This document shows positions 55,345-59,050 of a stretch of 64,000 nucleotides of DNA, in pieces. Below the pieces are notes generated by a model. The model searched no databases, was not told the DNA's origin, and worked only from the letters and a program-made list of their open reading frames with translations. Each line of letters opens with the position of its first letter. The first letter of the stretch is position 1. The DNA comes from Halopiger djelfimassiliensis (GTDB taxonomy: Archaea; Halobacteriota; Halobacteria; Halobacteriales; Natrialbaceae), in assembly GCF_000455365.1 (NCBI RefSeq), contig NZ_HG315687.1, forward strand, positions 281,786-345,785, in the 5' to 3' direction. A program made the translations under genes and the position numbers.

Positions 55345-56754
55345 TCACTCGAGCGGGCTGTCGGTAACGTCGCCGGCGTCGTTGCCCTCGGGCGATCCGT
55401 TCTCGTCGCCCTCGACGGGCCGTTCGAGTTTGTGCAGTCGGGCCTTCATGATGCGGGTGTTCTCGACGTCTTCGACGGTGATCCGGACGCCGTCGTACTC
55501 GATCTCCTCGCCCTCTTCGACGAGTCGGCCGGCGCGGTTGAAGATGAACCCGGCGATGGTTTCGAACTCCTCGCCCTCTGGAAGGTCGATTTCGAGGGCT
55601 TCGTTGACGTCCTCGATGTTGACCTCGCCCCGGACGAGGACGGTGTCGGGGTCGATCTCCTCGATCGGCTGTTCCTCGCCGCCTTCGAGGATTTCGCCGA
55701 TGATCTCCTCGATCATGTCCTCCATCGTCACCAGCCCCTCGGTGGTGCCGAACTCGTCGATGACGATCGCCATATGCATCCGGTTTTCCCGCATCTCCGT
55801 GAGGAGTTCGTCGACGTTTTTCGATTCGGGGACGTGTAGCGTCGGCTGGATGAGATCCGCGAGTTCGAGGTCGTCGGAACTGGTCTCGCCGTAGTTGAGA
55901 TCCCGGACCAGATCGCGGATGTGGACGACGCCGAGGACGTTATCGAGACTGCCCTCGTAGACGGGAATCCGTGCGTGGCCGCTCTGGATACAGGTCTCGA
56001 TCGCCTCGTCGATATCGGCGTCTTTCGGCACCGCCGTCATGTCGAGTCGCGGCGTCATCACCTCCTTGACGATCGTGTTGTTAAAGCGGAAGATACGCGT
56101 GAGCATCTCGTGTTCTTCTTCCTCCAAGACGCCCTCGCGTTCGCCGGACTCGATCATCTCCTGAATCTCGTCACGGGTGACGTACGGTGATTCGATCGCA
56201 CCGGTCGAGCCGATGAGCCTGTTGACCTGCCGCGTGAGGTAATCGAAGAGGACGATCAGCGGGAACAGCAGGTACTCCGTGGCCTTCAACGGCTTCGAGA
56301 TGCGAACCGCCCACGACTCGGTGTTCTCGACGGCGTAGGACTTGGGAACGCTCTCGCCGAACAGCAACACGAGCGCCGTGATCCCGAACGTCGCCAGCAA
56401 CACCCCGGCCAGTCCGCCGAAGTGGATCGACAGGATCGCCGTCGCGATCGAGGACATCGCGATGTTGACGATGTTGTTGCCGACGAGGATCGTCACGAGC
56501 AACCGATGTGGGTCGTCCTTGAGCGTTTTGACCAGCCGTGCACCCCTTACCTCGTCCTCGATCATCCCCTCGAGACGGTGTTTCGGCAGGTTGAACATCG
56601 CGATTTCGGACGAGGAGAAAAACCCGGAGAGACCGATGAGGATGGCGACGGCGATCGCACCGAGTATCGTCACCATCGACTGGGCGACCTCGACACCCAC
56701 GACCGGAACTTCGTAGGCGTCCAACGGAACCTCGAGCAGGGGAGCCAACGCCAT
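55345..56754 (-). CDS. CNNM/CorC-HlyC family membrane protein (DUF21-CBS)
   Basis: A 469-residue protein with the family layout: DUF21 membrane domain (about residues 30-195, with GFFSSSEIAMFNLPKHRLEG), a CBS pair (about 205-335, KEVMTPRLDMTAVPKDADID; LGVVHIRDLVRDLNY), and a C-terminal CorC_HlyC domain (about 360-440, LVRGEVNIEDVNEALEIDLP). Relatives handle Mg2+ or Co2+ efflux. The C-terminal tail is acidic. It diverges from the small thioltransferase gene at 56856. Confidence 0.93.
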   Translation of the reverse strand: MALAPLLEVPLDAYEVPVVGVEVAQSMVTILGAIAVAILIGLSGFFSSSEIAMFNLPKHRLEGMIEDEVRGARLVKTLKDDPHRLLVTILVGNNIVNIAMSSIATAILSIHFGGLAGVLLATFGITALVLLFGESVPKSYAVENTESWAVRISKPLKATEYLLFPLIVLFDYLTRQVNRLIGSTGAIESPYVTRDEIQEMIESGEREGVLEEEEHEMLTRIFRFNNTIVKEVMTPRLDMTAVPKDADIDEAIETCIQSGHARIPVYEGSLDNVLGVVHIRDLVRDLNYGETSSDDLELADLIQPTLHVPESKNVDELLTEMRENRMHMAIVIDEFGTTEGLVTMEDMIEEIIGEILEGGEEQPIEEIDPDTVLVRGEVNIEDVNEALEIDLPEGEEFETIAGFIFNRAGRLVEEGEEIEYDGVRITVEDVENTRIMKARLHKLERPVEGDENGSPEGNDAGDVTDSPLE

Positions 56755-56855: not shown

Positions 56856-57164
56856 ATGGAACCGTCCGCCGACCGCCCGATCACGTTTTACCGGCTGCAA
56901 GGCTGTCCGTACTGTGAACGCGTGACGCGGCTGTTAAACGAGTACGATCTCGAGTATCAGTCGCGGTTCGTCGAACCGATGCACTCGAAACGGGACGTCG
57001 TCAAACGCGTCGCCGGCGTCCGCACCGTCCCGGTCATCGTCGACGACAACACCGGGATCACGATGGCCGAGAGCGCGAACATCGTCGACTACCTCGAGTC
57101 GACCTACGGTTCGGCGGACGCCGAGCCCGACACTGCGGACACGCCTGCGGGGGGTGACGCCTGA
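56856..57164 (+). CDS. Glutaredoxin-like thioltransferase (CPYC)
   Basis: A 102-residue thioredoxin-fold protein with the redox motif GCPYCERV at residues about 16-23, a cis-Pro segment RTVPVIVDDNTG, and a glutathione-transferase N-domain-like end (MAESANIVDYLEST). Haloarchaea use gamma-glutamylcysteine in place of glutathione, so this probably serves that thiol. Its stop overlaps the ATG of the next gene by 1 base (TGATG), a strong coupling to the peroxiredoxin-like gene. Start chosen at 56856; the open frame from 56754 lacks support. Confidence 0.9.
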   Translation: MEPSADRPITFYRLQGCPYCERVTRLLNEYDLEYQSRFVEPMHSKRDVVKRVAGVRTVPVIVDDNTGITMAESANIVDYLESTYGSADAEPDTADTPAGGDA

Positions 57165-57673
57165 TGCCGGAGTTCGAGGTCGTCTCGCTCGAGTCGACGG
57201 ACCACGTCGAACCGGGCGACGACGCGCCCGAGTTTACCCGACCGCTGGTCAACGACGAGTACTGGACGGACCGGTCGCTGTCGGGGCTGGTCGCCGAGGG
57301 ACGAACCATCCTCGTTTTCACCCCGATGACCGGCTCGTTTCTCGCCAAGTACGTCTGGGACGAACTCCACGAGCGCGGCTGGGACGACCGCGAGGAGCGG
57401 GTCGTCGGTCTCACGGCGTCGACTCCCTACGGCGTCAAGCGATTTCTCGAGGCTAACGACTACCCCTTCGCCCTCTTTGCCGATCCCGGCAACGAGGTCG
57501 CACGCGCGTACGGGATCGCCCACGACCTCGACGGAATGGCAGGCATCAGCGAACCGCGGCTTGCCTTCTTTGCTATCGACGAGCAGCGAACGATCGAGGG
57601 CGCGTGGGTCGCGACCGAGTGGCCCGAGTTCCCCGAGTACGACGCCCTCGAGTCGGAACTCGGTCTCGAGTGA
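57164..57673 (+). CDS. Peroxiredoxin-like (AhpC/TSA fold) protein without cysteine
   Basis: A 169-residue thioredoxin-fold protein resembling AhpC/TSA redoxins: PGDDAPEFTRPLVNDEYWTD at the start, TILVFTPMTGSFLAKYVWDE where PxxxTxxC should lie, and ISEPRLAFFAIDEQRTIEGA late. The peroxidatic Cys position is not Cys, and the whole protein contains no cysteine. It is thus unlikely to be a classical peroxidase and may be a chaperone-like, regulatory or scaffold partner of the coupled CPYC protein. Confidence 0.85.
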   Translation: MPEFEVVSLESTDHVEPGDDAPEFTRPLVNDEYWTDRSLSGLVAEGRTILVFTPMTGSFLAKYVWDELHERGWDDREERVVGLTASTPYGVKRFLEANDYPFALFADPGNEVARAYGIAHDLDGMAGISEPRLAFFAIDEQRTIEGAWVATEWPEFPEYDALESELGLE

Positions 57674-57713
57674 CGACGGTACGTTTTTTCCCGTGCCGAT
57701 GCGAGTCTCCGGT

Positions 57714-58340
57714 ATGGGCGGAAACGCGGATGCGAACGTGGACGGTAACGTGAGCGAGACCGCCCTCGAGCGGGCCGCGACGGCGATCCGCGAGGGGGAG
57801 CCGGTCGTCTATCCGACCGAGACGGTCTACGGACTGGGCGTCGACGCCGTCGATCCCGACGCGGTCGAGCGCGCGTTCGAGATCAAGGGGCGCGACCGGT
57901 CGAAACCGATCTCGCTTGGGGTCCCGCGGTTCGAGACGGTCCGTAAGCAGTACGTTCACGCGACCGAGCGCGAGCGGGCCTTTGCCGAGCGGTTCCTTCC
58001 CGGCCCCGTCACGCTCCTCTGTGAACGCCGCGACGTCGTGCCCGACGTGCTCACCGCCGGCCGCGACCGGGTCGGGATCCGGATCCCGGACTGTAAGCCG
58101 GCATTGGAGTTGCTCGAGCGCGCCGAACGGCCGATCACGTCGACCAGCGCCAACGTCAGCGGCGAGCCAAGCGCCCGCCGGGTCGACGACATCGGCGAAC
58201 GGGTACGCGAGGCGGCGGTCGTCGTCGACGGCGGCGAAACCCCGGGAACCGAGAGTACGGTCGTCGATCTCTCGACCGAGACGATCCACCGGCGGGGCGC
58301 GCTGGCCGACGAGATCGAGGACTGGCTCGATCGCCACTAG
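57714..58340 (+). CDS. Threonylcarbamoyl-AMP synthase (Sua5/YrdC)
   Basis: Makes threonylcarbamoyl-adenylate for the t6A modification of tRNA. The 208-residue protein has the YrdC core: PVVYPTETVYGLGVDAVDPD, KGRDRSKPISLGV, and FLPGPVTLLCERRDVVP, with SRSTSANVSG-like TSTSANVSGEPS near the end. It lacks the long Sua5 C-terminal domain. An ATG at 57699 (MRVSGMGG) is an alternative start. It converges on the Cas4-like gene with a 4-base overlap. Confidence 0.93.
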   Translation: MGGNADANVDGNVSETALERAATAIREGEPVVYPTETVYGLGVDAVDPDAVERAFEIKGRDRSKPISLGVPRFETVRKQYVHATERERAFAERFLPGPVTLLCERRDVVPDVLTAGRDRVGIRIPDCKPALELLERAERPITSTSANVSGEPSARRVDDIGERVREAAVVVDGGETPGTESTVVDLSTETIHRRGALADEIEDWLDRH

Positions 58341-59050
58341 TCCGTGAACCCGAGCAGCGAGCGGAGCGTCCGGGTTCTGACGCCACAGTCGGAGGCGAAC
58401 TCACAGGCGGTACACTTCGAGCGGTTGCTGGTCCGTGGCGGTGGGCCGTCCAGTTCCCGAACCGTCCGGAGCACGCTCCGGTACCTCGCTTTTCGTCGCG
58501 TCGTCAACTCGACGGATCGCACGACGCCGTAGGCAGGGTACTCGATCCAGGCCCGATCGATCGACGTTCGGTGCTCCCAGGCCAGCGCCTTGGCGGCCGC
58601 GACAGCATGGACCGACTGCGACGACCAGACCCCGTGTTCCGGCGGTTCGCCTGCGGACACGAGTGCGGGTTCGATCGGGTCCGCGAGTACCTTGTGGACG
58701 ATCCCGCGACAGCGACGGCCGGTCACAAGCACGGCCTGTGCCCGGGGCTCGAGCAGTCGCGTCCAGTGGCCGTCGTCTTCGAGGGTCCGTTTGGTGGCCG
58801 CCAGCCGATCGCGGTACCGGGCCGGAGCGACGGCGATCGGTTCGTCCTCGAGTACGCCCGACGGGGAGTCGAGCAACCCCTCGTAGCGGGTTGCAAGCGC
58901 CCGGATCGCATCGACTTCCGGCGGCGGCTCCCGGTCCTCGTCGCGGGTCCGTCGATAGTACCACTTCCGCGGACAGTAGGCGGCGGTCCGGAGGTCACTG
59001 AACGAAACGCGGTCTACTGGCACGGGGCGTCTGGCCGCCCGTTCCTCCAA
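58337..59050 (-). CDS. Cas4/Dna2-like protein with Fe-S cysteines but degenerate nuclease core
   Basis: A 237-residue protein of the RecB/Cas4 type. Four cysteines match the Fe-S cluster layout: Cys26 in AAYCPRKWYY and three in KCTACEFASDC near the C terminus. The PD-(D/E)XK core is not conserved: the segment GIVHKVLADPIEPALVSAGE occupies the place of GxxDxxxx...ExKxG, so the catalytic Asp, Glu and Lys appear replaced, and the Q/H motif helix is altered too. It may be a DNA-binding or structural remnant. There is no CRISPR locus beside it. Confidence 0.8.
   Translation of the reverse strand: MEERAARRPVPVDRVSFSDLRTAAYCPRKWYYRRTRDEDREPPPEVDAIRALATRYEGLLDSPSGVLEDEPIAVAPARYRDRLAATKRTLEDDGHWTRLLEPRAQAVLVTGRRCRGIVHKVLADPIEPALVSAGEPPEHGVWSSQSVHAVAAAKALAWEHRTSIDRAWIEYPAYGVVRSVELTTRRKARYRSVLRTVRELDGPPPRTSNRSKCTACEFASDCGVRTRTLRSLLGFTD

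Follow-up and report, generated by a model that had tools for sequence, protein, structure and literature searches.

A near-universal haloarchaeal glutaredoxin-like protein is coupled to a peroxiredoxin-fold partner lacking the peroxidatic cysteine

Haloarchaea almost universally carry a glutaredoxin-like protein (Grx) together with a partner of peroxiredoxin fold that is devoid of the peroxidatic cysteine, which we refer to as pseudo-peroxiredoxin. The pair was analysed in a stretch of 64 000 nucleotides from Halopiger djelfimassiliensis (the window; Table 1) and in its orthologues. We propose that the two proteins constitute a redox module of two parts: thiol chemistry would be the task of Grx, and the Cys-less peroxiredoxin fold would serve as a non-catalytic partner, a reading to which we give about an even chance. 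Hybrids of peroxiredoxin and glutaredoxin and Cys-less peroxiredoxin-like domains are known already; a near-universal Grx of haloarchaea that has a Cys-free peroxiredoxin partner appears to be new. No report of such a pair was found among the matches listed in the literature searched, which was covered in part (Cys-less or pseudoenzyme peroxiredoxins, Prx-Grx fusions, haloarchaeal glutaredoxins).

Table 1. Positions of the gene pair, its active-site codons and the neighbouring genes in the window.
Feature	Position	Strand	Remarks
CNNM/CorC-type CBS-domain membrane protein gene	55345..56754	-	Pfam CNNM, CorC_HlyC and CBS over cut-off; divergent upstream
Glutaredoxin-like protein (Grx) gene	56856..57164	+	102 aa; GCPYC near N-terminus; Pfam
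CPYC codons, Grx active site	56904..56915	+	From the sequence
TGATG stop/start overlap	57162..57166	+	TGA 57162-57164, ATG 57164-57166
Cys-free peroxiredoxin-fold protein (pseudo-peroxiredoxin) gene	57164..57673	+	169 aa; AhpC/TSA type
Ala61 codon, pseudo-peroxiredoxin	57344..57346	+	Peroxidatic Cys position by HMMER alignment
Arg132 codon, pseudo-peroxiredoxin	57557..57559	+	Aligned to active-site Arg of Bcp proteins
Sua5/YrdC (threonylcarbamoyl-AMP synthase) gene	57699..58340	+	Start 57699 or 57714; Pfam Sua5_yciO_yrdC 170.3 bits; next downstream
Next window gene	58337-59050		Weak Cas4-type match, 21.1 bits, under cut-off 22.7

The original prediction had described a CPYC protein coupled, by a gene overlap of one base, to an AhpC/TSA-type protein without any cysteine. 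The last base of the TGA stop codon is indeed the first base of the following ATG, and the Pfam matches agree with both family assignments: Grx matches Glutaredoxin with 48.5 bits (cut-off 22.9) and GST_N_3 with 57.8 bits (cut-off 22), the pseudo-peroxiredoxin AhpC-TSA with 54.7 bits (cut-off 26) and Redoxin with 29.6 bits (cut-off 26.6). Neither protein exceeds any family cut-off of NCBIfam, and the pseudo-peroxiredoxin has no match in PHROGs at E 0.001. The CPxC of Grx lies inside a Grx-type domain, as in the CPYC class of glutaredoxins, and the label thioltransferase fits the motif and the Glutaredoxin/GST_N matches at the sequence level. Although GST_N_3 matches, the protein ends at residue 102 and lacks the helical C-terminal domain of glutathione S-transferases. 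Residues C17, P18, C20, V58, P59, E72 and S73 are constant in all 62 aligned orthologues. The Val-Pro residues V58-P59 (62/62) stand at the usual cis-Pro place, as far as residue identity goes. CP[FY]C is found in 135 of the 136 Grx proteins from orthologous pairs, 80 times as CPFC and 55 times as CPYC. The window genome has a second CPYC glutaredoxin of another haloarchaeal type (G000:C2:295356-295595, L117); the 3.2 kb fetched around that locus contained no match to the pseudo-peroxiredoxin profile.

A protein was counted as an orthologue of the pseudo-peroxiredoxin when it scored 130 bits or more against the family HMM; with duplicates over the last 150 residues removed, 136 distinct proteins from 211 loci were left. 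These are distinct sequences and do not stand for as many species. Their selection rested on family similarity and took no account of cysteine content or neighbouring genes. The 169 residues of the window protein include no cysteine, as predicted, and the peroxidatic column (Ala61) is empty of cysteine in all 136 haloarchaeal orthologues, which have Ala (104), Thr (15), Ser (9) or Gly (8) there. Columns 53-64 are likewise free of cysteine throughout, and five orthologues have a Cys at position 51, 52 or 65. Over their whole length, 114 of the 136 proteins contain no cysteine, 18 contain one and four contain two, at scattered positions. Three HMMER alignments agree on Ala61, which falls on the Cys of both 2cx3 and 2ywn with no gap nearby, whereas hhalign against haloarchaeal Cys paralogues shifts the loop by two residues and places Tyr63 at the peroxidatic Cys. 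The choice of register is immaterial to the absence, because neither column has a Cys in the 136 orthologues.

Complete lack of cysteine is in itself weak evidence, because cysteine is rare in the ORFs of the window: it makes up 0.85% of residues in the 39 acidic ORFs, is absent from three of the four acidic ORFs of 150-190 residues, and a Cys-free protein of 169 residues would be expected about one time in four from this composition. The empty peroxidatic column in all orthologues is strong evidence. Among the features of AhpC/TSA and Bcp/PrxQ peroxiredoxins, the fold and the active-site Arg are present and the peroxidatic Cys in PxxxT/SxxC is absent. Judged from its sequence, the pseudo-peroxiredoxin cannot act as a usual thiol peroxidase. 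An AhpC-TSA match alone is no reason to list such genes among the peroxidases of oxidative-stress gene sets.

A lone mutant, or a decaying peroxiredoxin without function, would explain the missing Cys and nothing beyond it. The original prediction had named the observation that would betray such a case, namely a peroxidatic cysteine retained by close homologues whose gene order is the same. Alignment of the Cys position brought up none: each of the 136 orthologues has Grx directly upstream on the same strand or fused to it. Among 131 measured pairs, all spacings lie within -8 to +5, and 93 pairs share exactly one base (-1). Across nine close pairs, the pseudo-peroxiredoxin gave dN/dS values of 0.10-0.32 and Grx values of 0.05-0.32, indicating that the pair is under purifying selection. 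Invariant columns number 28 in an alignment of 35 rows (A1) and 13 in one of 62 rows (A3). The 136 like orthologues, the dN/dS values and the invariant columns rule out a lone mutant or pseudogene, and we attach practically no weight to it.

At the place of the PxxxT/SxxC motif the window protein reads PMTGSFLA; the motif Pro is kept in 94 orthologues and replaced in 42, and the Thr/Ser place holds Ala (74), Ser (55), Asp (4) or Gly (3), never Thr. Arg132, whose equivalent we take to be the catalytic Arg of peroxiredoxins, is Arg in 135 of the 136 proteins and Lys in the remaining one. The loop of the former active site and the stretch ahead of this Arg hold near-constant residues (each 130-135/136), namely M55, G57, F59, Y63, G124, M125, G127 and E130. 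Given these residues and the kept Arg, the former peroxide pocket is apparently selected for another function. One candidate is a split peroxidase: the Arg pocket of the peroxiredoxin fold would bind peroxide, hypochlorite or chloramine, and the thiol of a docked Grx would react in trans. The persistence of Arg132 despite the Cys loss and of CPxC in 135/136 Grx proteins would suit this idea, which is at odds with Ala, Asp or Gly at the Thr/Ser place in 81/136 and with the frequent replacement of the motif Pro. If true, it would be a split enzyme, a peroxiredoxin active site completed in trans by a glutaredoxin. We know of no precedent for a peroxidase of this kind and consider it quite improbable.

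The AlphaFold2 (AF2) model of the pseudo-peroxiredoxin (62 rows; pLDDT 93, pTM 0.90) has Sulfolobus Bcp4 (3hjp) as its best match among solved folds (Z 20.9, rmsd 2.0, 152 residues aligned), tied with Mycobacterium tuberculosis AhpE (Z 20.8). As modelled, the protein is of the Bcp/PrxQ-type peroxiredoxin fold. It shares with Bcp/PrxQ proteins (Sulfolobus Bcp4 3hjp, S. tokodaii 2ywn/4g2e, Aeropyrum 2cx3) the common fold, the active-site Arg and a C-terminal WV..PxYD segment, and their sequence profile matches it with E 4e-19 to 4e-17. Unlike them, it has neither a peroxidatic nor a resolving Cys, and R26, W34, M55 and P154 are constant in pseudo-peroxiredoxins but not in Bcp/PrxQ. Pseudo-peroxiredoxins from L069-L077 are about 15-37 residues longer than that of the window, with an insertion after the first helix. 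Haloarchaeal peroxiredoxin paralogues that have the Cys, such as L002 in the same genome, belong to this fold family too; hhalign against a motif-based choice of 12 gave a probability of 99.7. These read PGAFTxVC, and the 13 such ORFs found below the orthologue threshold score 72-86 bits to the family HMM, as against at least 187 bits for the orthologues. A peroxiredoxin-like fold that lacks Cys at its classic position is also described for the P-DUDES and SRPX-CCDC80 domains, which according to the part of PMC3091736 available are vertebrate, bacterial and metagenomic, have a displaced Cys in 53/145, and come without description of a Grx partner.

In a tree of 62 rows, the orthologues are separated from the rows that have the Cys, and a branch setting the orthologues off recurs in 54% of the 200 bootstrap trees. 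They are grouped with two long-branch Cys-less haloarchaeal proteins, L078 (94.8 bits, the only related ORF under the threshold to outscore the 13 Cys paralogues) and L093 (66.8 bits), which fall below the orthologue threshold and also lack a Cys at the peroxidatic place; the tree program warns that long-branch joins such as these may be false. Rows in which a simple pattern did not find PxxxT/SxxC (L148 twice, L155, L156, L158) are on the other side of the tree. A single early loss of the peroxidatic Cys is likely from these sequences. The L093 protein (genome G176) is peroxiredoxin-like and has two Cys elsewhere. At L078:1112-1971, in a genome that has lost the main pair (G100), the diverged Cys-less gene lies head to head with a CPYC Grx of the second type (118 bits). 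Pairing of a Cys-less peroxiredoxin with Grx may have originated, or persisted, on two occasions.

Two orthologues are in-frame Grx-pseudo-peroxiredoxin fusions, L181 (G002) and L187 (a second copy in G073). In both, Grx precedes Prx and the peroxidatic place is without Cys, and their junction DNA contains neither a stop codon nor TGATG. The AF2 model of the fused L181 protein (268 aa, 19 paired rows) reached pLDDT 85.3 and pTM 0.77, with mean pLDDT 75-85 across five models. Compared with a pTM of about 0.6 expected for two unoriented domains, which is our own estimate from the share of the larger domain and not a computed value, this suggests an interface between Grx and pseudo-peroxiredoxin in the model. 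In a fold search with the fused model only the peroxiredoxin half was matched, among the matches listed, which is uninformative on the domain arrangement. Instead of assisting Grx, the pseudo-peroxiredoxin could be a pseudosubstrate that blocks its docking face and keeps it idle until oxidative stress releases it. The coupling, the fusions and the joint losses described below apply equally to such an inhibitor, and a dead copy of a Grx substrate would be a natural competitor. Permanent fusions, however, point to a working subunit more than to an inhibitor that can dissociate, and the 114 orthologues without any cysteine have none able to sense oxidation; we regard inhibition as unlikely.

Known peroxiredoxin-glutaredoxin systems differ from the haloarchaeal pair. 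The proteobacterial Prx-Grx hybrids (1nm3, HI0572) likewise join a peroxiredoxin to a CPYC-class Grx, and their Prx part is presumably catalytic. In 1nm3 the Grx part is C-terminal, and the window Grx aligns to residues 170-223 of 241 with E 0.21. The haloarchaeal pair has the order Grx-Prx, is usually encoded by two genes, lacks a Cys at the peroxidatic place and is archaeal. It is not a hybrid peroxidase in the sense of a catalytic Prx fused to Grx, since the window has two genes and the two fusions elsewhere are Cys-less at that place. In the part of PMC2679010 available, Prx-Grx fusions are reported so far only from proteobacteria. A second comparison is offered by M. tuberculosis AhpE and mycoredoxin-1, a one-Cys peroxiredoxin that, in the partly available sources, is supported by a Grx-like protein together with a low-molecular-weight thiol. 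AhpE keeps its peroxidatic Cys and is a substrate of the Grx, whereas the pseudo-peroxiredoxin offers nothing to reduce.

Distribution was determined at several depths. Orthologues were present in 19/19 genomes of the order within a draw of 120 genomes from the phylum, at 233.8 bits or more. A wider archaeal origin was considered and rejected, as the best match outside the order in these 120 genomes had only 36.3 bits. An exact-peptide scan of genome contigs with six patterns, which reaches close relatives only, gave 32 loci, all taken as haloarchaeal. Among 145 good genomes of the class, 139 contain a Grx orthologue (E 1e-36 or better), and all 139 also have the pseudo-peroxiredoxin by similarity (E 1.2e-44 or better, or a profile match), a count that was judged by eye from the tables and refers to presence in the genome, not to adjacency. 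Of the other six, G036, G100, G174, G197 and G101 lack both genes, with 76-95 bits as the best pseudo-peroxiredoxin-like match, and G011 has a Grx ORF without CxxC. Since the pseudo-peroxiredoxin is retained by congeners of G036, G100 and G197, several independent losses are implied.

CorC and Sua5 matches are 136-230 bp apart in G036, G174 and G101, and also in pair-less G155; in G013, an assembly of 78% completeness without pseudo-peroxiredoxin, the distance is 285 bp. Counting against this picture, two of the five genomes that lack both genes depart from a plainly closed-up site: about 845 bp of unrelated sequence separate CorC and Sua5 in G197, and in G100 no CorC was found within the 1.5 kb fetched upstream. 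In G016 (59% complete, without pseudo-peroxiredoxin), another, unrelated ORF lies between CorC and Sua5 (L214, about 2130-2615), which is perhaps, we assume, of a cyclophilin-like family.

In 32 named loci, the divergent CNNM/CorC gene is upstream in all, Sua5 is downstream in 31, and the counterpart of the gene at 58337-59050 is present in 26. The approximate distance from the pair to Sua5 is -6 to 139 bp in 25 of the 31 loci (within about 45 bp in 15) and 282-1055 bp in the other six. At L022, L028 and L034, Sua5 follows with almost no gap. From this arrangement the redox pair and Sua5, a gene of t6A tRNA modification, may form one operon. This opens a reading in which the pseudo-peroxiredoxin has a role independent of the Grx thiol, for instance that of a factor which binds a ligand or a protein and is tied to Sua5 and t6A synthesis, and the operon couples expression only. 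The constancy and closeness of Sua5 speak for it, as does G011, where the pseudo-peroxiredoxin is retained and well conserved (270.9 bits) beside the CxxC-less Grx ORF (L202; an assembly of 120 contigs), in which several other constant residues are changed as well. The G011 case suggests a role partly independent of Grx chemistry, or an assembly fault; the decay of its Grx may be real. Against a Sua5-linked role, the pair is lost jointly while Sua5 remains, the fusions join the pseudo-peroxiredoxin to Grx, and Sua5 is distant in the six loci mentioned. We judge this reading to be about as improbable as inhibition. Synteny with CorC and Sua5 alone could keep the two genes together, but it explains neither fusion nor joint loss. 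Sua5 is a conserved neighbour and not clearly a member of the module.

The earlier proposal that the protein has a function other than peroxidase, linked to its redox-active partner, has gained support from the orthologues without the peroxidatic Cys, the fusions, the joint losses and the purifying selection, all of them traits of sequence. A former Grx substrate turned Grx subunit is the best account of fusion, overlap and joint loss. The ancestor would have been a peroxiredoxin of Bcp/PrxQ type; it plausibly was a substrate of such a Grx at one time, and would have lost its peroxidatic Cys before the radiation of the known haloarchaea. In the present module, the N-terminal active-site Cys of Grx would attack disulfides of client proteins or their mixed disulfides with gamma-glutamylcysteine, and the oxidised CPxC would be re-reduced by gamma-glutamylcysteine. 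The non-catalytic partner would dock on Grx, and its former peroxide pocket would present or select clients or a ligand. The physical complex, the use of gamma-glutamylcysteine, the adaptor role and induction under oxidative stress are what we infer. In order of likelihood, we place the adaptor first, an inhibitor or a Grx-independent role next, and the split peroxidase last. If true, the module would neatly illustrate how an enzyme can become a dedicated subunit, and would provide a named protein partner for the haloarchaeal gamma-glutamylcysteine system.

Gamma-glutamylcysteine is probably the thiol used by Grx. We take the constant Glu-Ser of Grx (E72-S73) to be the GST-fold element that binds the gamma-glutamyl group. 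The part of PMC7278568 available reports millimolar gamma-glutamylcysteine in haloarchaea, about 4 mM in the species measured, and the presence of thioltransferase activity. The GCS2 family (GshA) was found in 20/20 genomes searched, the window genome included, with or without the pair. A link between the pair and gamma-glutamylcysteine synthesis was thereby rejected, and the module is not the sole user of this thiol, because GCS2 is also present in genomes that have lost the pair.

Probable counterparts can be named in Haloferax volcanii, which makes this a tractable host. HVO_0253 is an essential YrdC/Sua5 protein according to the available parts of PMC3017900 and PMC3426518, and on the basis of gene order with this gene, HVO_0251 (‘Glutaredoxin’) would be the counterpart of the window Grx. 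By gene order alone, the pseudo-peroxiredoxin should be HVO_0252, probably the correct tag; no mention of this locus tag was found in the partly covered literature searched, and the main text of a transposon paper on H. volcanii (PMC4300041) mentions neither HVO_025x nor glutaredoxin. The 5′ region of HVO_0251 has a high ChIP-seq peak of the regulator OxsR under hypochlorite in the part of PMC9426492 available, a binding that the split peroxidase could also claim in its favour. The 12-fold induction given there belongs to HVO_0337, a different glutaredoxin.
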